64,000 nt of DNA from Rhizobium ecuadorense (GTDB taxonomy: Bacteria > Pseudomonadota > Alphaproteobacteria > Rhizobiales > Rhizobiaceae). Positions within the stretch are counted from its first letter, which is position 1. Each line of letters opens with the position of its first letter. The notes under the pieces were generated by a model. It did not search any database, was not told the DNA's origin, and worked only from the letters and a program-made list of their open reading frames with translations. The stretch is taken from positions 248,001 through 312,000 of the forward strand of contig NZ_LFIO01000381.1 in NCBI RefSeq assembly GCF_001187535.1. Direction: 5' to 3'. This document shows, one piece after another, positions 2,327 through 14,150 of this stretch. Both the position numbers and the translations under genes were made by a program.

Positions 2327-2989
2327 TCATTCGGCGCCGGCAATGCGTGAGAAAGCGGCGAGAACAGTGCGCTCAGACTGCATCAGATACACCTCAAGTG
2401 CCGCTGAGGCTTCGGCCGTCATCCCTGCCTCAAGCTTTTCAAGGATCGCCGCATTGAGGTCGACGTAAGGAGCGTGCAACAGCTCGGGCTCGGAAAGCAG
2501 GCCGAAGCTGAGTCGCAGCTCTGCGGCGATCTGCGCATAAAAGATGTTCAGACGGTGACTGTCGGCGAGATCTACGATCGCCGCGTGAAAGACCATGTTC
2601 TCACTGCCGACCATGCCCCAGTCCTTGGCCTCGCGCGCGAGCTTGGCACGCGTGACGGCCGCGCGCATGCGTGCCACCGCCGGATGGTTGGGATACGCCT
2701 TGGCGAGCGCCTGGCATTCGATCACACGGCGCACGCGATAGATGTCGATGATCGAGGCCATACTGGGTGTGGCGACAAAAACGCCGCGATTCGGCTCGTG
2801 CCGCAAGAGCCCCTCTTTTGTCAGGAGGCGGAATGCCTCACGCAAAGAGTTGCGCGATACATCCAGGCCTGCACTTAGCGCTGTCTCGGAAAGGCGCTGG
2901 CCCGGCTTCAATTCGCCAGCAATCAGTTTGTCGCGGATTTCCTCCGCCAGCCGCGACGCAAGCGCCGATGTGATATTTTGTTCGACCAT
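2327..2989 (-). CDS. GntR family transcriptional regulator, FCD subfamily
   Basis: A 220-residue regulator with an N-terminal winged helix (about residues 8-70, ending RHEPNRGVFVATPS) and a C-terminal all-helical FCD ligand domain of the FadR type. Such proteins are usually repressors released by a carboxylic acid or sugar acid. It is divergent from the NRAMP-pxp operon, which it probably controls. The frame is open to 3070, but the ATG at 2989 has AGGGG upstream whereas the one at 3070 has no ribosome site. The ligand is inferred to be 5-oxoproline or a related compound from context only. Confidence 0.85.
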   Translation of the reverse strand: MVEQNITSALASRLAEEIRDKLIAGELKPGQRLSETALSAGLDVSRNSLREAFRLLTKEGLLRHEPNRGVFVATPSMASIIDIYRVRRVIECQALAKAYPNHPAVARMRAAVTRAKLAREAKDWGMVGSENMVFHAAIVDLADSHRLNIFYAQIAAELRLSFGLLSEPELLHAPYVDLNAAILEKLEAGMTAEASAALEVYLMQSERTVLAAFSRIAGAE

Positions 2990-3406
2990 CAAAGCCCCTA
3001 ATGCACAGGCACGGATGAAACGTCCGCGCTCTTGCGCATCGATATAGCGGTTTGCATCTCCGGGAGCCATAAGAGGAGTGGCTTGACCACGCGGGCCGGG
3101 TCAACGCTAGGCGCCGTACATGGCCCCCCGGGCAGACAGGAAACGAAAAGTCCGCAACCGCTTCCTTATCGTTGATGCACAAAAGGAGGCAAGCGCCACT
3201 TCGGAATTGGCAGCACTTGCAACAATCAAGGACATCGCGCCCAAGTGAGTTGATTGCCGCCGAATTTTGGTCGCCTGGTAGAACGATATAGAAAAATCGT
3301 TGAACAATCTTGACAGGATTGTAAAACATGTCACCGTGATGCCTGTCAACAAACCTAGGCGGGCCCGCCGAGATTTCGGCGGCGATCTGCACATAAGGAG
3401 GGGTTC
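2990..3406. promoter_or_regulatory. Divergent promoter region of the GntR gene and the pxp operon, with candidate operator
   Basis: This gap of about 417 bases lies between the regulator and the NRAMP gene. The clearest symmetric site is ACAATC at 3304-3309 facing GATTGT at 3317-3322, overlapping a TTGACA hexamer at 3310-3315 that could serve as a -35 box for the rightward operon. An FCD-type repressor bound there would block the promoter. Other open frames in the gap look spurious. Confidence 0.45.
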
Positions 3407-4663
3407 ATGGAACAGTCAGCCATTTCAATTGCAGCCGCTGCGCCGGCGCAGATGTCGGCCAAGTCGCGCCGCGCTGCGCTGATGGCGGCCATCTTCCTGA
3501 TGGCCACGTCTGCCATCGGTCCGGGCTTCATCACCCAGACGGCGACGTTCACAACAAAACTCGGTGCGGCCTTCGCCTTCGCGATCCTTGCCTCTATCCT
3601 GATCGATTTCGTCGTTCAGCTGAACATCTGGCGGATCGTGACGCTGACGAAGATGCGGGCTTCCGATCTCGCCAATGCGGCCCTCCCGGGCTCCGGCTAT
3701 CTGCTCGCAATTCTCGTCATCGTCGGCGGATTGTTCTTCAACATCGGCAACATCGGGGGCACAGGCCTCGGCATCAATGCGATGATCGGCCTTGATCCCA
3801 AGCTTGGCGGGGCGATCAGCGCGCTGCTTTCGATCGGCATCTTCCTGTCGAAGCGTGCCGGCATGGCGGTCGATCGCTTCATTATCCTGGCCGGTATCCT
3901 GATGATCGCCTTGACAGTCTATGTCGCCTTCGCCTCGGCTCCGCCAGTTGGCGACGCGCTGTTCCAGACCTTTCTGCCGTCCACCATCGATTTCGCCACC
4001 ATCACCACCATCGTCGGCGGCACGGTCGGGGGCTACATCACCTATTCCGGCGCACACCGACTGCTCGACAAGGGCACGGTCGGCATCGAGAATCTCGGTG
4101 CGATCAACCGTGCAGCGCTGACCGGCATCGCCGTCACCGGCCTGATGCGCTACGTGCTTTTCCTGGCCGTCCTCGGCGTGGTTGCGGGCGGGGCGGCCAT
4201 CGATGTTTCCGGCGCAGGTGCGAATCCGGCTGCTCAGGCTTTCCAGGCCGCGGCTGGCAACATTGGCCTGCGCATCTTCGGCGTCATCCTCTGGGCCGCC
4301 GCGATCACATCTGTGATCGGCGCCGCTTACACCTCGGTCTCCTTCATCACCATTTTCAAGAAAGACATCACCGAGCGGGCCCGCAACATCGCGACTGTCA
4401 TCTTCATTGCCGTGTCGCTGTTCTTCTACGTGATCATCACCACGCCGCCGGCACAGATGCTGGTCTTCGTCGGGGGGCTGAACGGATTGATCCTGCCGAT
4501 CGGCCTGTCGATCTTCATCTATGCGGCCTGGGCTCGGTCCGACCTGATGGGAGGCTATCGCTATCCGCGTTGGCTGCTGTTGCTCGGCGTCATGGTCTGC
4601 GCACTGACCTGGTACATGGGCTACAAGTCGATCGGCCCGATCTTCGCGCTGCTTGCCGCGTAA
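3407..4663 (+). CDS. NRAMP-family (YcsG-like) inner-membrane transporter
   Basis: A 418-residue multi-helix membrane protein with about eleven hydrophobic segments and the early motif [12 protein letters not shown] typical of the divergent NRAMP branch found in ycsF/pxp clusters. Classical NRAMP proteins import Mn2+ or Fe2+. This branch (YcsG of Bacillus) is always near 5-oxoprolinase genes, so it may move an organic substrate or a metal needed by the pathway; this is not settled. AGGAGG precedes the start. It is the first gene of the rightward operon and is probably controlled by the GntR regulator. Confidence 0.85.
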
Positions 4664-4787
4664 CGGCAGGACGAGGAAAGGTGCGGGCGCGTTTGCGCCC
4701 GGCCCCGCTCTGACTTTCAGAATTGATCACGCTTTCGGTTCGCGACAGCCCGGCCTACATCGTTCGTTATTCACAGGGAGATCTGAC

Positions 4788-5552
4788 ATGACTGCCATCG
4801 ATTTGAACAGCGATCTCGGCGAGAGCTACGGCGCCTGGGGCATGGGCGACGACGCCGCTATGCTGGCCATCGTCTCCAGCGCCAATATCGCCTGCGGCTT
4901 CCATGCCGGCGATCCGCTCGGCATTCTGAAGACTGTCAAAGCCGCCGCTGTCCGGGGCGTTTCGATCGGAGCCCATGTTTCCTATCCCGACCGCGTCGGC
5001 TTCGGACGGCGCGACATGGACGTCACGAGTGCGGAGCTGACGGCCGACGTTATCTATCAAATCGGTGCGCTGAAGGGCGTTGCCGCAGCCGCCGGTGTAA
5101 CCGTCGGTTACGTCAAGCCGCACGGCGCTCTCTATAACCGCATTGCCCATGATCCGAAGCAGGGTCAGGCGGTGATCGACGCCATCAGGGCGGTCGATCC
5201 GGATCTCGTGCTGATGGGCCTGGCCGGTGCACCCATCCTCAAACTCGCGCACAAATCCGGCCTCAAGACGGTGGCCGAGGCCTTCGCCGACCGCGCCTAT
5301 ACGCCCGGCGGGGAACTCGTTTCGCGTCGGGAACCGGGCGCAGTTCTGCACGACGCAAACGCGATCGCCCGTCGCATGCTGCAGCTTGCTCACGAGGGTA
5401 CGATCGAAGCGACCGACGGCTCGACCATCAAGGTCGATGCTCAGTCGATCTGCGTCCATGGCGACAGCCCCGGTGCCGTGGCGATCGCCCAGGCAATTCG
5501 CCAGGCCTTTGAGACCGACGGGATCACCGTTCGCTCGTTCCTGGCGGCATAA
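4788..5552 (+). CDS. pxpA: 5-oxoprolinase subunit PxpA (LamB/YcsF family)
   Basis: The 254-residue product begins [17 protein letters not shown] and continues [12 protein letters not shown], the hallmark of the LamB/YcsF family. PxpA is the subunit of the three-part prokaryotic 5-oxoprolinase that works with PxpB and PxpC to open 5-oxoproline to glutamate with ATP hydrolysis. The full family length is present. The ATG at 4788 follows CAGGGAG; the frame extends upstream to 4653 but without protein-like sequence. It is second in the operon, 124 bases after the transporter gene. Confidence 0.92.
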
Positions 5553-5572
5553 GCAAATATCGGGAGGAAACC

Positions 5573-6379
5573 ATGATTGCGATTGAGAACCTCGGCCACA
5601 TCGATGCCGAAGCGGCGCGCCTCGCGCGTCGGCGCTATCGGGCCGGCAGTGCCGAGCCGACGTCGGGTGTGGCGCCGGGATTTACCCAGGCAAACATGAT
5701 CGTCCTGCCGCGCGACTGGGCCTTCGATTTCCTGCTCTTTGCGCAGCGCAATCCGAAGGCCTGTCCGTTGCTCGACGTTTCCGATCCCTGCTCGCACATG
5801 ACGCTTCTGGCTCCAGGGGCCGATCTTCGCACGGATCTGCCGCTCTATCGCATTTGGCGCGACGGCAGGCTCGCCGAGGAAATCGCGGATGCGACGAGGG
5901 CCTGGGCGGAACATGCCGATCTCGTCAGCTTCCTCATCGGTTGCAGCTTCACCTTCGAAACGTCGATGGTCGAGGCGGGCATCGAGATCCGGCATATCAC
6001 CGATAAGTCGAACGTTCCGATGTATCTGACCAACCGTGCCTGCCGCCCGGCAGGCCGGCTGCGCGGCAACATGGTCGTGTCGATGCGGCCGATCAAGGCG
6101 AGCCGCGTTGCCGATGCCGCGACGATCTCCGGCCGCTTCCCGGCGGTGCATGGCGCGCCCATCCATATCGGTGCGCCGGAAGAGATCGGCATCCGGGACC
6201 TGTCGAAGCCGGAATTCGGCGATCCGGTGCGTATCGAGCCTGGTGAAATCCCGGTGTTCTGGGCCTGCGGTGTGACCCCGCAGGCCGCCGTGATGGCATC
6301 CGGCGTGCCCTTTGCCATCACCCACGCGCCGGGGCATATGTTCATTACCGACATTCCCGACACCGCCTATCACGCCTGA
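5573..6379 (+). CDS. Putative hydro-lyase, DUF1445 / D-glutamate cyclase-like (YcsI family)
   Basis: A 268-residue soluble protein of the DUF1445 family, with conserved stretches [21 protein letters not shown] and [12 protein letters not shown]. The eukaryotic relative DGLUCY turns D-glutamate into 5-oxo-D-proline, so a role in making or handling 5-oxoproline fits the surrounding pxp genes. The bacterial enzyme is labelled hydro-lyase in databases with little proof. GGGAGGAAACC precedes the start, 20 bases after pxpA. The gene order recalls ycsF-ycsG-ycsI-kipI-kipA of Bacillus. Confidence 0.85.
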
Positions 6380-6386
6380 GGATCCG

Positions 6387-8018
6387 ATGCGTTTCCTGCC
6401 CGTCAACCTGACGACCCTTTTGGTCGAACTCGACGATCTCGACCAGACGCTGGCACTGTTTGCTTCGCTCGAAACCGATCCGGTGGAGGGCATCGAAGAC
6501 ATAGTGCCGGCCGCCCGCACGCTGATGATCGGCTTTCGCGCAGAAAAGCTCACCGCGGAACGGCTCGCCGGCGAGATCGCCATCCGCGACCTTTCGGCCC
6601 GCATCGCGCCGTCCGACCAGTTCGTCGAAATCCCGGTTCACTATGACGGCGAAGACCTTGCCGATGTGGCGCAACTGACCGGTCTGGCAGTCGAAGAGGT
6701 CATCCGTCGTCACACCGAGAGCACCTTCACCGTTGCCTTCTGTGGCTTTGCCCCCGGTTTCGGTTATCTTGTCGGTGGTGATCCCGCGCTGCAGGTGCCG
6801 CGGCGCCAAAGCCCGCGGACCCGGATTCCGGCGGGTTCGGTCGCCCTTGCCGGCGCCTTTTCCGGCGTCTATCCGCAGGCAAGTCCCGGCGGCTGGCAGA
6901 TCATCGGCACGACGCCGGAAAAAATGTGGGACCTGTCGCGCGATCCGCCGGCCTTGTTCCAACCCGGCTACCGCGTCCGCTTCTTCGATCTCGAAAAGCG
7001 GCCGGTTGCGGTTTCCACTCCGGCGACGAAGGTCGTGGATCCGGGCCCGGCCGAGTTCACCGGCGAGGCCGTGACACTAAAGGTCCTGGCCGCACCCATG
7101 CCGGCACTGTTCCAGGATCTCGGCCGCTTCGGCCAGACCGGCCAGGGCGTGTCCTCATCAGGGGCGCTCGATCAAGGGGCACTCAAGGCCGCCAACCGCA
7201 TCGTCGGCAACGCTGCCGGCACCCCCTGCCTCGAAATCATCCTCGGCGGCTTTTCATTCGAAGTGTCGGGCCGGGCGGTGATGGCACTCACCGGCGCGCC
7301 CTGTCCCATATCCATCCGCGATGCCCAGGGGCGCACCATCGCCGTCGAAACCTATCGGCCTATCTCGCTGGAGCCCGGCGACGTGGTGACCCTTGGTCAT
7401 GCGCCGTGCGGCATGCGAAGCTATGTTTCGATCCGCGGCGGCCTCTGCGTCGGGCCGGTGCTCGGCAGCGCCTCGACCGATACGCTTGCCGTCGTCGGTC
7501 CGGACCCGGTCACTACGGGAACGATTTTGACAGTGAAAACGGCGGTGCAGTCTCTTGACAGCGTATCGCTTTCCGAAGCGCCGGCATTCGCGTTTCCGGC
7601 TTCCGGCGAGATCGTGACGCTCGACGTGATCATGGGACCGCGCAGCGACTGGTTCACCGAGGCGGGCATCGCCAGTCTCTCGGGTCAACTCTGGCAGGTG
7701 ACGCCGCAGTCCAACCGCGTCGGCATCCGTCTTTCCGGCGACACAGCGCTCGAGCGCAAGGACAAGGCGGAACTGCCGAGCGAGGGAACGGCGACCGGCG
7801 CGATCCAGGTGCCGCATAGCGGCCAGCCGGTGCTTTTCCTTGCGGATCATCCGATGACCGGCGGTTACCCGGTCATCGGCACTGTCGCCGAATATCATCT
7901 CGATCTCGCCGGGCAGATCCCGGTCAATGCCCGGATATGCTTCCGGCCCGTGACGAAGTTTGCCGAAGTTCGGCCGCCCGTGCAGGACACCGAAGCGATG
8001 GCGCCCAGAAATAAGTGA
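6387..8018 (+). CDS. pxpBC: PxpB-PxpC fusion, 5-oxoprolinase / urea-amidolyase family
   Basis: The 543-residue protein joins two normally separate subunits. Residues 1 to about 210 are PxpB/KipI (AHS1), with [27 protein letters not shown] and SPGGWQIIG. From about 225 to 540 is PxpC/KipA (AHS2), starting [14 protein letters not shown] and containing [19 protein letters not shown]. Together with PxpA it should form 5-oxoprolinase. The same two domain types make the carboxyltransferase part of urea carboxylase. The ATG lies 7 bases after the hydro-lyase stop. The fusion is clean, with no frameshift. Confidence 0.92.
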
Positions 8019-8028
8019 GGAGACATCC

Positions 8029-9786
8029 ATGCAGAAAGTCCTGATCGCCAACCGGGGCGAGATTGCGGTGCGCATCATCCGGGCCTGCCGCGATCACGGC
8101 CTGCAATCGGTCGCCGTCTATGCCGATCCGGACATGGATGCGCTCTTCGTCAAGCTAGCGGACCAAGCCTACGGGCTTCCCGGCAGCCGTCCGGCGGAAA
8201 CCTATCTCGATATCGACAAACTGATCGGCATTGCCAAGCGTTCGGGCGCCGATGCCGTTCATCCCGGCTACGGGTTCCTGTCCGAGCGTGCCGAGTTCGC
8301 CCGAGCCGTGATCGATGCGGGCCTCATCTGGATCGGACCGGACCCGCATGTCATCGAAGCGCTTGGCGACAAGGTCGAGGCCCGGCGCATTGCGCTAAGT
8401 GTCGGCGCGCCTCTCGTCGTCGGCAGTGACGGTCCGGTCGAGACCGCCGCGGAAGTCACCGCCTTTGCTGAGAAACACGGCCTGCCCGTTGCCATCAAGG
8501 CGGCGCATGGGGGTGGCGGACGCGGCCTGAAGGTTGCCTTGAAGATGGAGGAGGTGGCGGAACTCTACGAATCCGCCGTGCGCGAGGCCAAGGCCGCCTT
8601 CGGCCGCGGCGAGTGTTTCCTCGAACGTTTCCTCGATCGTCCGCGCCACATCGAGGCGCAGGTGCTGGCTGACAAGCATGGCAATGTGCTCGTTCTCGGC
8701 ACCCGTGACTGCTCGCTACAGCGGCGCAACCAGAAGCTCGTCGAGGAGGCGCCGGCACCGTTTCTGACCGACGCTCAGCGCCAGTCGATCCACGACGCCG
8801 CGAAGAAGATCTGTGCGGCGGCCGGCTACTCGGGCGCTGGAACGGTCGAGTTCCTGCTCGGCGTCGACGGCACGATCTCCTTCCTCGAAGTGAACACGCG
8901 CCTTCAGGTCGAGCATCCGGTCACCGAGGAGACGACCGGCATCGATCTCGTGATCGAGCAGTTCCGCATCGCCGATGGCCTGCCGCTGCGCATCACCGAA
9001 ACGCCTACCCCGCGTGGCCACTCGATCGAGTTCCGTATCAACGCCGAAGATCCGGGCCGTGGCTTCCTGCCGACACCCGGTGCGATCACTGTTTTCGACG
9101 CACCCTCCGGTCCCGGCATCCGTCTCGACACCGGCGTCGGCGTGGGTTCGACCGTTCCCGGCACCTTCGATTCCCTGATGGCGAAGCTGATCGTCACGGG
9201 CAGTACACGTGAGGAGGCGTTGAGACGCGCCCGCCGCGCCCTGAAGGAGTTCCGGATCGAGGGCGTCGCAACGGTCCTTCCGTTCCACCGCGCCGCGATC
9301 GAGGCCGACGAATTTATCGGGGAGACGGGATTCACGGTGCACACGCGCTGGATCGAGACCGGATTCGCCGATCGGCTTTCGGCCGTCGCCCGACCCGAGC
9401 CGGTTGCCGACGGCGACCTGATCCGCACCCACGTCGAAATCGACGGCAAGCGACATGAACTCGGCATTCCCGCGGCTCTTCTTGCCGGTCTCGGCAAACT
9501 TGCGGGCGCGGGTAACGGAGGTGCGACATCACCAAAGACCGAAGACGCAGCGACCATAACCGCACCGATTTCCGGCACGCTGCAGGCTTTCAAGGTCGAA
9601 GATGGCGCGGAGGTTGTTGCCGGTGACTTCATCGCCGTCATGGAGGCGATGAAGATGGAAACCCAGGTCACGGCATCGCGGGCAGGCAAGATTCGGATCA
9701 AGGCAGAGGTTGGCGCATATCTCCAGGCCGGAGCGGAAATCGCCCGCTTCGAGGACCCGCTGTTCTCTGCTCCGCCTATGACATGA
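8029..9786 (+). CDS. Biotin carboxylase with C-terminal biotinyl domain (AccC-like)
   Basis: The 585-residue protein begins [22 protein letters not shown], then has the ATP-grasp glycine loop GGGGRGLK and the [15 protein letters not shown] motif of biotin carboxylase (about residues 1-450). It ends in a biotin carrier domain with EAMKM, the lysine being near residue 542. It should carboxylate its own biotin. No ordinary carboxyltransferase gene is nearby, but the PxpBC fusion just upstream has the carboxyltransferase folds of urea carboxylase. GTGAGGAGAC gives a strong ribosome site 10 bases after the previous stop. Housekeeping AccC normally lacks this fused tail, so a different substrate is likely. 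Confidence 0.9.
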
Positions 9787-10558
9787 TCAACCCGCCATCG
9801 ACATTGATCGTCTGGCCGGTGATGTAGGCGGCGTCATCGCTGGCGAGGAAGGTGACCAGGCCGGCGACGTCCTCGCCGGAGCCGGCGCGTTTCATCGGGA
9901 TGCCTTCGACCCATTCCTTCATCAGTTCGCCGGGGGCGTAGCTGCCCAGCAGCTTGCCCCAGGCCTGGTCGTTATAGGCCCACATGTCGGTCTCGATGAT
10001 GCCGGGGCAGAAGGCGTTGACGGTGATGTTTTCGGTCGCGACTTCCTTGGCCAGGCTCTGGGTGATGCCGACCACGCCCATTTTCGAGGCGGCGTAGTGC
10101 GGCGTGAAAATGAAGCCGTCGCGGGCCTGGCCGGAGGCGGTGTTGATGATGCGGCCGCCGCGCTTGTGCTTGCGCATGCGCGATATCGCCTCCTGGGCGC
10201 AGAGGAAGACGCCCTTGGTGTTGACGGCCATGACCTTGTCCCACTCGTTCTCCGTCAGGTCCTCGACGCGGGCGATGGTGATGACGCCGGCATTCTGGAT
10301 CGAGACGTCGACAGAGCCAAATTCCGCCTCGGCCGCATCGTAGAGGGCGATGACGCTTGTTTTGTCGGTAACGTCGCCGATGAAGGAGATCGCCTTGCCG
10401 CCTTCGGCCCGGATCTGCTCGGCAACGCCGTGGACCAGATCCTCGTTGGCCGAAACGACAAGATTGGCGCCTTCGCGGGCAAAACGCCTGGCGATCGCCG
10501 CGCCGATGCCGCGGCTGCTTCCGGTAATGACGACCGTCTTTTGCTCAAAGCGTTTCAT
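9776..10558 (-). CDS. SDR family oxidoreductase, likely polyol/sugar dehydrogenase (1)
   Basis: A 260-residue classical [11 protein letters not shown] at residues 12-19, catalytic Ser near 142, Tyr155 and Lys159, and the ending [13 protein letters not shown]. The sequence resembles the sorbitol/butanediol-type branch. It is the last gene of the leftward sugar-uptake operon and overlaps the convergent biotin carboxylase gene by 11 bases. GGAAGGAAAG precedes the ATG at 10558, which is preferred over an upstream start at 10594. Oxidation of an imported polyol to a ketose is inferred from context. Confidence 0.88.
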
Positions 10559-10787
10559 GCTCTTTCCTTCCCGGTATCCTGATATAAACGGCAAATCTGC
10601 GCGCGACCTACCGTGCGATCATTGTTGAAGCTCAAGCGGCTGCGACAGCCGTTCGATCAGCGCGAAGGGCGGGCAGGCGGCGATATTGCGCCGTCTTGCC
10701 CGTTGGTCCCTTCAGCGCCTCGGTCTCAGCCAGGGAGGAAGCGAGACCGGTTCATTTTCTGTTGCCGGCAATGCGTCTTCTTATCCA

Positions 10788-11576
10788 TCACCAGCAGCAG
10801 AAACCGCCGTCGACGAGAAGATCGACGCCGGTGACGAAACTTGCCGCATTCGACAGCAGGAACACCGCCGGACCGACCATTTCGTCGACCGCTGCCATGC
10901 GCTGCATCGGCGTCTGCTCCTCGAAAAGCTTGGTCTGATGAACCATCTCCGGACGGGTGTTCATCGGCGTTGCCGTATATCCGGGGGAGATGGTGTTGAC
11001 GCGAATGCCGCGGTCGACCCATTCCATCGCCATAGACTTCGACATGTGGATCACGCCCGCCTTGGAGGCGTTGTAATGCGCCTGGCTCAGCCCCCGGTTG
11101 ACGATCACGCCCGACATGGAAGCGATGTTGACGATGGAGCCGCGTCCATTCTTCAGCATGGCGCGGGCCTCGGCCTGGCAGGAAAGAAAGATGCCTTTGA
11201 GGTTGATATCCATCAACGTCTGGTATTGATCCTCTTCCATCTCTTCGGCCGCGTTCGCATTGGCGATGCCTGCGGCGTTGACGGCCAGCGTCAAGGCGCC
11301 GAGGTCCGCTTCGGTCCGTGCGACTGCTTCTCCGAGGGAAGACTTGCTCGTCACGTCAGCTGCGATCTCGATCGCGCGGCGGCCGGCGGCGCGGATATGT
11401 TCAGCCGTATTGGCCAGTCCGTCATCGGTCCGGCGGTCGAGCAGGGCCACGTCGGCGCCGCATTGCGCAAGGCCGATGGCAATGCGCTGCCCAATGCCGC
11501 TCCCGGCGCCGGTGACGATGGCAACCTGGCCGCTGAGATCGAAAAGCTTCGGGGCGTTCAGAGTGATGTCGGACAC
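10788..11576 (-). CDS. SDR family oxidoreductase, likely polyol/sugar dehydrogenase (2)
   Basis: A 262-residue SDR with TGAGSGIG at residues 22-29, Ser near 153, Tyr168 and Lys172. It ends VDGGFCCW, an ending I associate with sugar-alcohol and ketose reductases of the sorbose/xylulose reductase type. The chosen start is a GTG at 11576 directly after AAGGAAGAGCG; the frame runs up to 11678 without a ribosome site. It lies between the ABC ATPase and the other SDR on the same strand, with a 229-base gap to the latter. The substrate is inferred only. Confidence 0.88.
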   Translation of the reverse strand: MSDITLNAPKLFDLSGQVAIVTGAGSGIGQRIAIGLAQCGADVALLDRRTDDGLANTAEHIRAAGRRAIEIAADVTSKSSLGEAVARTEADLGALTLAVNAAGIANANAAEEMEEDQYQTLMDINLKGIFLSCQAEARAMLKNGRGSIVNIASMSGVIVNRGLSQAHYNASKAGVIHMSKSMAMEWVDRGIRVNTISPGYTATPMNTRPEMVHQTKLFEEQTPMQRMAAVDEMVGPAVFLLSNAASFVTGVDLLVDGGFCCW

Positions 11577-11598
11577 CGCTCTTCCTTTCTCTGTCTGT

Positions 11599-13077
11599 TT
11601 AGATGGTAGCCAGTTCCATGACCGAAACGTCATTGGCCTGGTCACGATTGAGAATCCCCGCCTGCTTGCCTTGCGCAAGCACGAGAATGCGATTGGAGAC
11701 GCCGAGAACTTCCTCGAGGTCCGAGCTTACGACGATGACCGCGACGCCCTGTTTGGCGAGATTGACGATGATGTCGTAGATGCCCGCGCGGGCGCCAACA
11801 TCGATGCCTCTCGTCGGTTCGTCGAGCACGACGACCTTGGGATCGCGCATGAGCCATTTGGCGATCACGACCTTCTGCTGGTTGCCGCCTGATAGGTCCG
11901 AGGCGTACTGCTCGGCACGGCCCTTGACGCCGAATTTGGCAACGGCCTTTTCCGCAAAGGAGCGCTTGATGCGCGGTGTGATCCAGCCGCCGCCCAGCTT
12001 GTCGAGATTGGCGTAGATAATGTTCTCGCTGATCCGGTGCCCGACGATCAGGCCTTGCTCCTTGCGGTCTTCCGGAACCATCACGATCCCCCTGGCGATG
12101 GCGTCCGCCGGGTCGCGCAGTCTGAGTTCCTCGCCTTCCAGCTTGATCGAACCAGCACTGATCGCATCGGCGCCCGAAATCGCCCGCACCAGTTCGGTGC
12201 GGCCGGCGCCGACCAGCCCGGCGATGCCGAGAATTTCGCCGGCCCGCACCTCGAAGGTAACGTCACGGAACGAGTCGTCCGGCGAGCTTAGCCCGGACAC
12301 TTCAAGCACCGGACGATCTGTCGGAACGGGCAGAGTGGGGAACAAACGGTCAAGCGGGCGTCCGACCATGCTCTCGACAATCGTTCGCACCGGGGTCGCG
12401 CTGTCGGAGAATTCCTGCACGCGCTCGCCGTCGCGAAGAACGACGATGCGGTCGGTGATCTGCTTGATCTCTTCCATTCGGTGGGAAATGTAGACGATGC
12501 CGACGCCTTCCGAGCGAAGCTTGCGAACCTGTTCGAAGAGAGCTTCCGTCTCCGCGCCGCCAAGGGCGGCTGTCGGCTCATCGAGGATCAGCAGCTTTGC
12601 GTTGAGAGCCAGCGCCTTGGCGATCTCGATGAGCTGCTGATTTGCCGTGGAAAGGCCGGCAACCTTCCGCGTCGCGGGTATGTGAAGGTTCAAGCGAGCG
12701 AGTTGGTCCTGGGCTCGGCGAACCATCTGGGCACGGTCGACGGCGCCGTTCTTCATCGGCCAGCGTCCGATGAAGACGTTTTCCGCGATAGACAGCTGCG
12801 GCAGAAGCTGCAGCTCCTGATGGATCAGGACGACGCCCTTGTCGATGGCTTCCCTCGGGGTGGCCGGGGCATAAGGCTGCCCCAGCCATGTCATGGATCC
12901 TTCGGAGGGCGTGCGTGAGCCGGCGATGATGCCCGACAGTGTCGACTTGCCCGCTCCGTTTTCACCGAGAAGTGCAACGACTTCGCCCGGATAGACGTCC
13001 AAGCTGACATCCTTCAGAACCTGGAGCGGCCCATACCACTTGGATATGCCCCTCAGGGAAAGAACGGGATCAGTCAC
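11599..13077 (-). CDS. Sugar ABC transporter ATPase, RbsA/XylG type
   Basis: The 492-residue protein holds two fused ABC domains, as in RbsA, AraG and XylG. The first Walker A GENGAGKST is at about residues 38-46. The second domain has the family's altered loop GLVGAGRTELVRAI, while its signature DLSGGNQQKVVIAKWL is intact. It powers import of a monosaccharide or polyol together with the permease and binding protein upstream. GAGGAGGTGTGCC precedes a GTG start at 13077, chosen over a TTG at 13092. Confidence 0.95.
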   Translation of the reverse strand: MTDPVLSLRGISKWYGPLQVLKDVSLDVYPGEVVALLGENGAGKSTLSGIIAGSRTPSEGSMTWLGQPYAPATPREAIDKGVVLIHQELQLLPQLSIAENVFIGRWPMKNGAVDRAQMVRRAQDQLARLNLHIPATRKVAGLSTANQQLIEIAKALALNAKLLILDEPTAALGGAETEALFEQVRKLRSEGVGIVYISHRMEEIKQITDRIVVLRDGERVQEFSDSATPVRTIVESMVGRPLDRLFPTLPVPTDRPVLEVSGLSSPDDSFRDVTFEVRAGEILGIAGLVGAGRTELVRAISGADAISAGSIKLEGEELRLRDPADAIARGIVMVPEDRKEQGLIVGHRISENIIYANLDKLGGGWITPRIKRSFAEKAVAKFGVKGRAEQYASDLSGGNQQKVVIAKWLMRDPKVVVLDEPTRGIDVGARAGIYDIIVNLAKQGVAVIVVSSDLEEVLGVSNRILVLAQGKQAGILNRDQANDVSVMELATI

Positions 13078-13105
13078 GGCACACCTCCTCAAGACCTCAA
13101 CTTTA

Positions 13106-14035
13106 TCAGGGATGGTTGGCGATGAAGCCTGCCACGTTTTCCTTGGTGGTCAGCGTGGCATCCAGGAGCTGGACCGGCGGCACCTTTTCTCCGGCGACAA
13201 GCTTGGCGGCATTTTCAACCGCATCGCGGCCCATCTTCTGCGTCTGCTGCGTCGCCGTCACGTTGAAGACGCCCTTGCTGAGGGCTTCGAGTGCCGCGGT
13301 GTCGCCATCGAAACCGCCAACCACGATCTTCTGCGACGGATTGGCGACCTTGATCGCCTGGGCAGCGCCAAGGGCGAGACCGTCGGCCTGTGCAAAGACG
13401 ATCGAAACATCAGGGTTTGCCTGCAGCATGTTCTGCATGATCTGGAAGCCTTCGTCCTGGCTCCAGATGTTCGAGAACTGCTCGGCGACAACCTTCACGT
13501 CAGGATAGGCCTTGAGGGATTCAGCGCAGCCCTTCGAGCGATCGACTTCCGGCGTCGTGCCCTTCTGGCCGTGGATGATGACCATCTTCCCCTTGCCGCC
13601 GGCTTCCTTCAGAATGTAGTCGCAGACCGCCTTGGCTGAGGCGACGGAATCCGTTGCGAGGAAGGTATCGCCCGGTGCACCCTCGGCGTTGCGGTCGACG
13701 TTGACGACCGGGATGCCGGCGCTCTTGGCCAGCTTGACCGGAACGGTCGCAGCCGCTGCACCTGCCGGAATGTAGATCAGCGCGTCGATTTTCTGGGTCA
13801 GAAGATCCTGGATCTGGTTGACCTGCGTCGGTCCGTCGCCCTTTGCGTCGACCGTGATGACTTCGATGCCGCGCTTCTTGGCTTCGGCCTCGACCGATTG
13901 CTTGATCTGGTTGAAGAAGTTTGCCTGAAGATTGGCGACGGCCAGGCCGAGCTTCTTCAGTTCCGCCGCGTGCACGGGGCCGAGCATGAGACCGAGCAGT
14001 GCAGCAGATGCGAGCATGGTGCGCGCTATTTTCAT
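13106..14035 (-). CDS. Periplasmic sugar-binding protein of a ribose-type ABC importer
   Basis: The 309-residue protein has a clear signal peptide (MKIARTMLASAALLGLMLG, probably cut after VHA at about residue 23) and a peripBP_4/RbsB-like fold: NLQANFFNQIKQSVEAEAKK, ILTQKIDALI-type region and VGGFDGDTAALEALSKG. It should deliver a sugar to the adjacent permease. GGAGGAAATACA stands before the ATG at 14035; the frame above it is not protein-like. Family members bind ribose, xylose, allose or polyols, so the ligand cannot be read directly. Confidence 0.93.
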   Translation of the reverse strand: MKIARTMLASAALLGLMLGPVHAAELKKLGLAVANLQANFFNQIKQSVEAEAKKRGIEVITVDAKGDGPTQVNQIQDLLTQKIDALIYIPAGAAAATVPVKLAKSAGIPVVNVDRNAEGAPGDTFLATDSVASAKAVCDYILKEAGGKGKMVIIHGQKGTTPEVDRSKGCAESLKAYPDVKVVAEQFSNIWSQDEGFQIMQNMLQANPDVSIVFAQADGLALGAAQAIKVANPSQKIVVGGFDGDTAALEALSKGVFNVTATQQTQKMGRDAVENAAKLVAGEKVPPVQLLDATLTTKENVAGFIANHP

Positions 14036-14150
14036 TGTATTTCCTCCGTTGTTGATGGAACCCTCGGGTATGTCCTCCCCCTCGGGGTATTGATCCGCCC
14101 CCAATTTCGGGGCGGAATTTTGGGGCCGCCAACGCGGCGGACCCTGCTCG

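Follow-up and report, generated by a model that had tools for sequence, protein, structure and literature searches.

Why would an operon for the opening of 5-oxoproline carry a biotin carboxylase (BC)? The question is raised by five adjacent genes of Rhizobium ecuadorense, located in a 64,000-nucleotide stretch of contig NZ_LFIO01000381.1 (positions 248,001 to 312,000; assembly GCF_001187535.1) that we call the window. They encode an NRAMP-like transporter, the 5-oxoprolinase subunit PxpA, a DUF1445 protein, a fusion of PxpB and PxpC (PxpBC), and a protein in which BC is joined to a biotin carboxyl carrier (BCCP) domain (BC-BCCP). A preliminary description of the window had listed these genes in this order, which our open reading frames (ORFs) and domain matches bear out, and had suggested that the last two proteins form a split carboxylase for 5-oxoproline or another cyclic amide. 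The partnership in that suggestion stands, as PxpBC and BC-BCCP very probably work together, and with PxpA; carboxyl transfer and its acceptor remain a proposal. The reading that we favor, and hold to be reasonably probable, is that the operon encodes a biotin-dependent 5-oxoprolinase, in which carboxybiotin activates the lactam and PxpA opens the ring. Within this reading, 5-oxoproline is the likely substrate; carboxylation of the lactam may be the chemistry, a point on which we lean slightly toward doubt.

RESULTS

BC-BCCP is conserved beside PxpBC

The best 80 relatives of BC-BCCP were taken, 45 from Pseudomonadota and 35 from Actinomycetota. PxpC is encoded immediately upstream of BC-BCCP in 45/45 of the Pseudomonadota and 7/35 of the Actinomycetota, and PxpA is encoded at 51 of these 52 loci; the remaining one is truncated by a contig end. 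A GntR match lies somewhere in the locus in 41 of the 52, and DUF1445 and NRAMP each occur in 22 of 53 linked loci when the window is included. The distance from the PxpBC stop to the BC start, estimated from the ends of the HMM matches, has a median of 10 bases and is at most 50 in 54 of 62 cases. Given the 45/45 linkage among these relatives, the position of PxpBC next to BC-BCCP is not due to chance. The nearest named relative is that of Pararhizobium polonicum, whose BC-BCCP is 90% identical; across 142 genomes of the class, only the window genome's own two BC-BCCPs exceed 52% identity among the matches listed. Homologs of BC-BCCP (E value of 1e-150) were also seen on 215 plasmid records, 95 of them from Klebsiella and many from rhizobia and Shinella.

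An independent survey for the CT_A_B domain drew on two sets of genomes that overlap in part. Of 142 genomes from the class, 35 had a match, as did 82 of 249 from the phylum; only loci without an ORF of urea carboxylase length were kept, one 28.9-bit fragment was dropped, and the window locus was not counted. Among the resulting 112 loci, 26 had a same-strand BC no more than 4 kb away, and PxpA was present at 24 of the 26. BC and BCCP form one protein in ten of the 26 loci and are encoded by separate genes, in several orders, in the rest. All nine PxpB-PxpC fusions in the survey were accompanied by BC-BCCP, and none of the 86 loci lacking BC carried a fusion. Fusion alone is nevertheless no sign of biotin: an actinobacterial locus (L289) is fused and has no neighboring BC, and Thermus TTHA0988, considered as a protein only, is fused as well. 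Variant arrangements were also seen. A Thermomicrobium roseum plasmid (L250, 3687-7417) carries genes for a biotinyl-domain protein, PxpB, PxpC, PxpA, and the biotin transporter BioY, with no BC annotated in the stretch, and its PxpB keeps the urea carboxylase Lys discussed below. On a 4716-base contig (L218), the order is PxpA-BCCP-PxpB-PxpC with no BC detected between, though close kin have one.

By our assignment, the genome has no acyl-CoA carboxyltransferase to spare for BC-BCCP

The whole genome encodes six BCs and has three matches to PF01039, the acyl-CoA-type carboxyltransferase (CT) family, one full-length and two partial. We take the full-length match to be PccB and the partial ones AccA and AccD, a 474-residue BC to be AccC, and the BC within a 1160-residue ORF to be pyruvate carboxylase; one further BC carries a PCC_BT domain. 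A full-length urea carboxylase (1179 residues; 1797 bits versus a cut-off of 1303.85) is followed by allophanate hydrolase (amidase plus AH_C). Two BC-BCCPs are of the operon's kind, the window copy and one 68% identical on another contig; each follows PxpA-PxpBC, and no further PxpA gene was found in the genome. Once the PF01039 proteins are paired with AccC and the PCC_BT-bearing BC, no acyl-CoA carboxyltransferase is left for the two BC-BCCPs. A CT partner elsewhere, which the preliminary description would have held against its proposal, is not to spare on that assignment, and its remark that the operon has no usual CT is correct in that no PF01039-type gene lies there. PxpBC, with its urea carboxylase CT fold, is the sole adjacent candidate.

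This accounting bears on the explanation that BC-BCCP serves as alpha subunit to an acyl-CoA carboxylase with a CT gene elsewhere, its site beside pxpBC being incidental. The closest solved relatives of BC-BCCP are indeed AccA3 subunits, and its BC groups with actinobacterial AccA3 (see below), but the three PF01039 matches are accounted for by AccA, AccD, and a PccB-like protein with BC partners present, by our naming, and every one of the 45 Pseudomonadota homologs adjoins PxpBC. We judge this explanation highly improbable.

The second copy, missed by the preliminary description, lies on a second contig (L036, 10252-14376) in the order PxpA-PxpBC-BC-BCCP. Downstream of it are two FAD-linked oxidases and a 4Fe-4S/CCG protein, a glycolate-oxidase-like set; upstream are an ABC ATPase, a xylose-isomerase-like protein, and, about 7 kb away, a PF14336 D-glutamate cyclase-like protein, another cyclase type than the PF07286 (DUF1445) protein of the operon. 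A D-glutamate cyclase family is thus within reach of both loci.

The proteins retain carboxylase residues and folds

In BC-BCCP, residues K115, K157, H207, K236, E274, E287, N289, R291, and R336, which we take to be the usual BC catalytic residues, are invariant in 19/19 aligned homologs. So is K542 within EAMKME, the biotinyl lysine already pointed out in the preliminary description. The best PDB match of the protein is AccA3 (739.1 bits, in entries including 9yx5), with 5mlk at 739.0. An AlphaFold2 model of PxpBC had a pLDDT of 89.9; its PxpC half matched 3mml (Mycobacterium smegmatis MSMEG_0435-0436) with a Z score of 39.2 and 5i8i (Kluyveromyces lactis urea amidolyase) with one of 33.7, and its PxpB half matched chain W of 9yx5 (Z score of 24.7). 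By its title and chains, PDB entry 9yx5 is an AccA3-containing long chain acyl-CoA carboxylase complex of M. smegmatis with MSMEG_0435-MSMEG_0436 bound, and the latter pair falls in the same CT clade as fused PxpBC in a tree made from partial sequences. In M. smegmatis, MSMEG_0435-0436 is induced about twofold under nitrogen limitation, and the organism also has genes annotated as urea amidolyase and allophanate hydrolase (PMC4617892).

Family models drew a finer line. PxpA passed the subunit test (377.1 bits on NF003814, cut-off of 226), whereas the PxpB half scored under the equivalog level of TIGR00370 (135.8 versus 145.55) and the PxpC half under that of NF045499 (175.9 versus 500), both of which are cleared by E. 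coli PxpB and PxpC. PxpBC passed the broader domain model TIGR00724 alone (234.9 versus 230.2). Neither BC-BCCP (508.3) nor PxpBC (137.5) reached the full-length score of the urea carboxylase family TIGR02712 (1303.85). All the domains of a urea carboxylase are present in the operon, as the preliminary description stated, but a full-length enzyme is encoded elsewhere in the genome.

Carboxylases of several lineages are associated with PxpBC

A BC tree of 67 rows contained 22 of the 62 sequences of the fused class, to which the window belongs, 8 of 28 AccA3 sequences, and controls picked and named by ORF length and position (8 AccC, 4 PCC/MCC, 2 pyruvate carboxylase, and 8 urea carboxylase); locus L123, with a BCCP truncated by a contig end, was left out. 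Of the 30 rows in the clade that contains the window BC (support of 100/100), 22 were pxp-linked and 8 were actinobacterial AccA3 sequences. BCs adjacent to pxpBC occupied four places, and urea carboxylase BC a fifth. The first place is the AccA3-like group that includes the window; the second, of 11 rows, is sister to a group made up of AccC and a 3-row clade; the third is that 3-row clade beside AccC; and the fourth is a single row close to PCC/MCC and urea carboxylase, with support of 99/98 for the larger group and 94/80 for the grouping with urea carboxylase. A common origin of every pxp-linked BC was rejected (p-AU of 0.0007), a post hoc result in that the group was named after the first tree.

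For the CT tree, 22 of the 61 rows of the fused class were included, and five near-identical unlinked rows were dropped. Fused-class PxpBC formed one clade, with 0 of 77 unlinked Pseudomonadota rows inside, and a second clade held urea carboxylase, 14 of 17 loci with separate BC genes, and four loci without BC. Fused-class and urea-carboxylase-like CTs as separate groups were not upheld, the joined topology having a p-AU of 0.77. Because it outscored the free quick tree by 26 log units, the quick tree is suboptimal, and a single clade of biotin-linked CTs is possible. The two kinds stood apart, with modest support (88), in a smaller CT tree that included 24 of the 77 unlinked rows, M. smegmatis, and 18 actinobacterial loci chosen after their residues had been seen; left out of this choice were rows with the urea carboxylase Lys, four BC/BCCP loci with unlinked-type residues, and fragments. 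There, a 30-row clade (support of 100) united 14/14 fused-class rows with 16/19 actinobacterial rows including M. smegmatis, the latter share being biased by the selection. Thirteen of the 15 actinobacterial loci examined from this clade have no BC in the stretch analyzed; L290 has a linked BC-BCCP, and at L292 a BC lies at a distance of about 3 kb. All 15 genomes encode PxpA, and 12 of them encode a BC-BCCP that shares at least 59% identity with that of the window. The simplest account suggested by the trees is that the fused-clade CT works with AccA3-type BC-BCCP and may have carried a copy of this partner along on transfer into Pseudomonadota, where the two are linked, whereas in actinobacteria they are mostly unlinked; the direction is presumed.

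Residue columns of the carboxyltransferases

The general base of urea carboxylase CT is Lys1605 (PMC5770610), whose column was located by alignment; loci L039, L043, L214, and L123 were too short and were dropped from the residue table. The column holds Lys in 8/8 urea carboxylases and in 14/17 separate-BC loci (L132, L133, L200, L207, L211, L212, L213, L215, and others), in which PxpA is kept. This PxpA-BCCP-BC-PxpB-PxpC class seems to be a urea-carboxylase-type enzyme in split form; the window class lacks that base. When both CT domains were scanned for columns that split BC-linked from unlinked rows, five passed, of which B227 (Phe158) and C183 (Leu367) were pursued and B92, B214, and C389 were left. 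B227 is aromatic in 43 of 48 linked rows versus 2 of 76 unlinked rows, and C183 is aliphatic in 43 of 48 versus 10 of 76; the residues of M. smegmatis, E. coli, and Thermus agree with this division. As proof of biotin dependence, the two positions were dropped for want of tree-corrected significance. Four actinomycetote loci (L253, L258, L260, and L267), with PxpB-PxpC, BC and BCCP nearby, and residues of the unlinked type (Arg, Gln, and Lys), make a further linked class.

Features of the locus and its surroundings

The coordinates are collected in Table 1, which includes a divergent regulator gene that the preliminary description had not mentioned. The intergenic gaps are 124 bases between the NRAMP and PxpA genes, 20 between PxpA and DUF1445, 7 between DUF1445 and PxpBC, and 10 between PxpBC and BC. 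A motif check of the NRAMP-like protein found neither DPGN nor MPH, presumably the metal-binding motifs of canonical NRAMPs. Downstream on the reverse strand (9776-14104) lie two short-chain dehydrogenases, a double ABC ATPase, and a periplasmic binding protein; upstream of the regulator (95-2113) are an EamA-like transporter on the reverse strand and a short-chain dehydrogenase on the forward strand.

Table 1. Genes and codons of interest at the pxp locus, in window positions
Feature	Positions	Strand	Remarks
GntR/FCD transcriptional regulator, divergent from operon	2327..3070	-	PF00392 + PF07729
NRAMP-family transporter, PxpT/YcsG/MumT-like	3407..4663	+	PF01566, E 1.1e-16
PxpA (LamB/YcsF), ring-opening subunit of 5-oxoprolinase	4788..5552	+	PF03746, E 4.5e-102; solved relatives exist
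DUF1445 / PF07286 (Pfam D-Glu_cyclase; NCBIfam "putative hydro-lyase")	5573..6379	+	PF07286, E 2e-67; NF003969 above cut-off; solved relative 3db9
PxpB-PxpC fusion, urea carboxylase-type carboxyltransferase fold	6387..8018	+	CT_C_D + CT_A_B
Arg139 codon, aligned to urea carboxylase general base Lys1605	6801..6803	+	
Phe158 codon	6858..6860	+	Aromatic in CTs of the fused class and of urea carboxylase; Gln in most unlinked PxpB
Leu367 codon	7485..7487	+	Aliphatic in CTs of the fused class and of urea carboxylase; Arg/Lys in most unlinked PxpC
BC and BCCP domains in one protein (BC-BCCP), AccA3-like	8029..9786	+	PF00289, PF02786, PF02785, PF00364
Lys542 codon, predicted biotinylation site within EAMKME	9652..9654	+	

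DISCUSSION

A proposed route for 5-oxoproline

The scheme that we infer for this organism, from complex formation and substrate to every chemical step, is built on the observed parts, their co-conservation, the fold, and the phylogeny. By family names and published reports, the GntR regulator would sense the substrate, the NRAMP-like protein would import 5-oxoproline or Mn, and the DUF1445 protein would make 5-oxo-D-proline from D-glutamate. The transporter may carry either cargo, since PxpT is required for growth on 5-oxoproline in Corynebacterium glutamicum (PMC13274462) and YcsG is reported to be a Mn importer (PMC10448178). The BC domain would carboxylate biotin on Lys542 using ATP and bicarbonate, and PxpBC would transfer the carboxyl group onto the lactam. 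In the simplest case the lactam nitrogen would be the acceptor and the product N-carboxy-5-oxoproline. PxpA would then hydrolyze the activated ring to N-carboxyglutamate, a carbamate that would lose CO2 to yield glutamate. The logic would be that of urea carboxylase and allophanate hydrolase, an unreactive amide being first carboxylated and then hydrolyzed. Lactam carboxylation is reasonable chemistry in light of an ATP-dependent caprolactamase of an unrelated family that needs bicarbonate and for which its authors considered this step (PMC8453981).

The partnership of PxpBC and BC-BCCP is very probable because of their co-conservation, their co-transfer, the accounting of parts in the genome, and the solved homologous complex. 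The carboxylase proposal is strengthened by the 45/45 linkage, a fused clade free of unlinked Pseudomonadota rows, entry 9yx5, and the BCs of four lineages; we also count in its support the tight PxpBC-BC spacing, the genome accounting, the T. roseum BioY operon, the second locus, and the caprolactamase precedent. Biotin-dependent carboxylation might instead have a substrate other than 5-oxo-L-proline, either a different cyclic amide or the lactam of a D-amino acid, for which one could cite the D-glutamate cyclase families within reach of both loci and the presence of two diverged copies, whose BC-BCCPs are 68% identical. PxpA and the PxpT/PxpR-like neighbors point to 5-oxoproline, and we regard this alternative as very improbable.

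Weighing the alternatives

Several observations weigh against biotin dependence, and some of them agree with an ordinary ATP-dependent, phosphorylating PxpABC 5-oxoprolinase, to which BC-BCCP binds through PxpBC but in a regulatory role or for another reaction. The C. glutamicum pxpTABC cluster suffices for growth on 5-oxoproline, and the published model, in which coupling is assumed in print, has PxpBC phosphorylate 5-oxoproline with ATP and without biotin (PMC13274462). The Lys1605 column holds Arg in 61/61 fused-class sequences (Arg139 in the window), as in 78/82 unlinked PxpB. No same-strand BC is nearby at 86 of the 112 surveyed loci, 72 of which have PxpA, and the E. coli pxp operon was read here without a BC. 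The Phe158 and Leu367 columns were chosen after the data had been seen and rest on two transitions; a test of independent pairs, with L131 recoded as linked (a divergent BC is about 4 kb off) and L218 counted as linked (BCCP, no BC), was not significant (B227, 2 for and 0 against of 7 pairs; C183, about 2 for and 1 against). Unlinked-type residues occur at the BC-linked loci L157, L166, and L220, in Lactiplantibacillus, and at L253, L258, L260, and L267. Three of the 15 actinobacterial genomes with a fused-clade CT have only a 49% identical BC-BCCP, and the host complex in 9yx5, an entry for which we found no paper, is a long-chain acyl-CoA carboxylase. Finally, the use of urea nitrogen by Acinetobacter baumannii depended on mumC, not on mumH, two genes of an operon of the window's type (PMC5050338). 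Phosphorylation leaves unexplained that every fused-class Pseudomonadota locus found has a dedicated BC-BCCP, with no unlinked Pseudomonadota row in the clade, and that BCs of unrelated lineages are repeatedly associated with pxpBC. We consider it unlikely.

The mumC phenotype also speaks for a split urea carboxylase, as proposed in A. baumannii for MumC and MumH, and so do the matching gene order (PMC5050338) and the urea carboxylase fold of PxpBC. We find this very unlikely for the window: the genome already has a full-length urea carboxylase with allophanate hydrolase, the catalytic Lys is absent, no amidase lies within the operon, and PxpA accompanies 51 of the 52 linked relatives. In Acinetobacter, judged by ORF lengths only, an ORF as long as the fusion occurs in 33 of 79 genomes. 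A urea-carboxylase-like ORF accompanies it in 25 of the 33, in one case with a length of only 999 residues, and is missing from the other 8; five of these 8 were checked, and all five have PxpA.

Returning to biotin dependence, this operon allows energy coupling in prokaryotic 5-oxoprolinase to be tested directly. The operon type is known; its biotin part has gone without an explanation, apart from one case in which it was interpreted as urea carboxylase. No proposal of a biotin-dependent 5-oxoprolinase was found in the open literature searched, judged mostly by titles and abstract openings. If true for one widespread class, carboxybiotin-driven lactam opening would be a new use of biotin, would suggest another role for the Acinetobacter "urea carboxylase" mum genes, and would give a rationale for the binding of a mycobacterial PxpBC pair to an acyl-CoA carboxylase complex. 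More tentatively, biotin-driven carboxylation could be a distinct energy-coupling route for lactam hydrolysis, and PxpBC-type CTs could include an old branch that kept its biotin chemistry while swapping BC partners (AccA3-like, two AccC-like, and one PCC/UC-like), with urea carboxylase as one fused offshoot. In that case, actinobacterial PxpBC without a linked BC would borrow housekeeping AccA3.

Comparison with known systems

The gene arrangement is not new, for it matches Acinetobacter mumTLUHC. This five-gene operon of A. baumannii was described in 2016 as urea carboxylase, with MumC as the urea carboxylase and MumH as allophanate hydrolase; as in the window, NRAMP comes first and the biotin carboxylase last, after the allophanate-hydrolase-like gene, and 5-oxoproline is not mentioned in the accessible part of the paper (PMC5050338). 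Acinetobacter sp. NIPH 2100 has NRAMP, PxpA, DUF1445, PxpBC, and BC-BCCP as in the window, and by the gene order in other Acinetobacter, mumL and mumU presumably correspond to PxpA and DUF1445.

PxpABC of E. coli, Bacillus subtilis, and C. glutamicum share the PxpA, PxpB, and PxpC domains with the window. That of C. glutamicum is accompanied by a transporter and by the GntR-type PxpR, of the same position and family type as the window regulator (PMC13274462); that of E. coli differs in having no BC or BCCP, the window PxpC scoring far under the PxpC equivalog cut-off. A six-gene operon of Staphylococcus aureus includes pxpB, pxpC, pxpA, accB, and accC (PMC11315280), and like a Lactiplantibacillus plasmid locus (L247), it resembles the window in combining pxpABC with BC and BCCP; both differ in having separate BC and BCCP genes, and the L247 CT has unlinked-type residues. 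A 2011 carboxylase phylogeny had already noted split CT genes of the urea carboxylase type as unstudied (PMC3199775). Urea carboxylase itself (TIGR02712; K. lactis structures 3va7 and 5i8i) has the same four modules, BC, CT_A_B, CT_C_D, and BCCP; the window splits them over two proteins, has Arg at the general-base column and a BC of another lineage, and has no adjacent amidase. The M. smegmatis complex 9yx5 differs in that its PxpB and PxpC are unfused and the complex is an acyl-CoA carboxylase, but like the window, it brings together a PxpB/PxpC pair of the same clade and AccA3, the closest solved relative of the window BC-BCCP.

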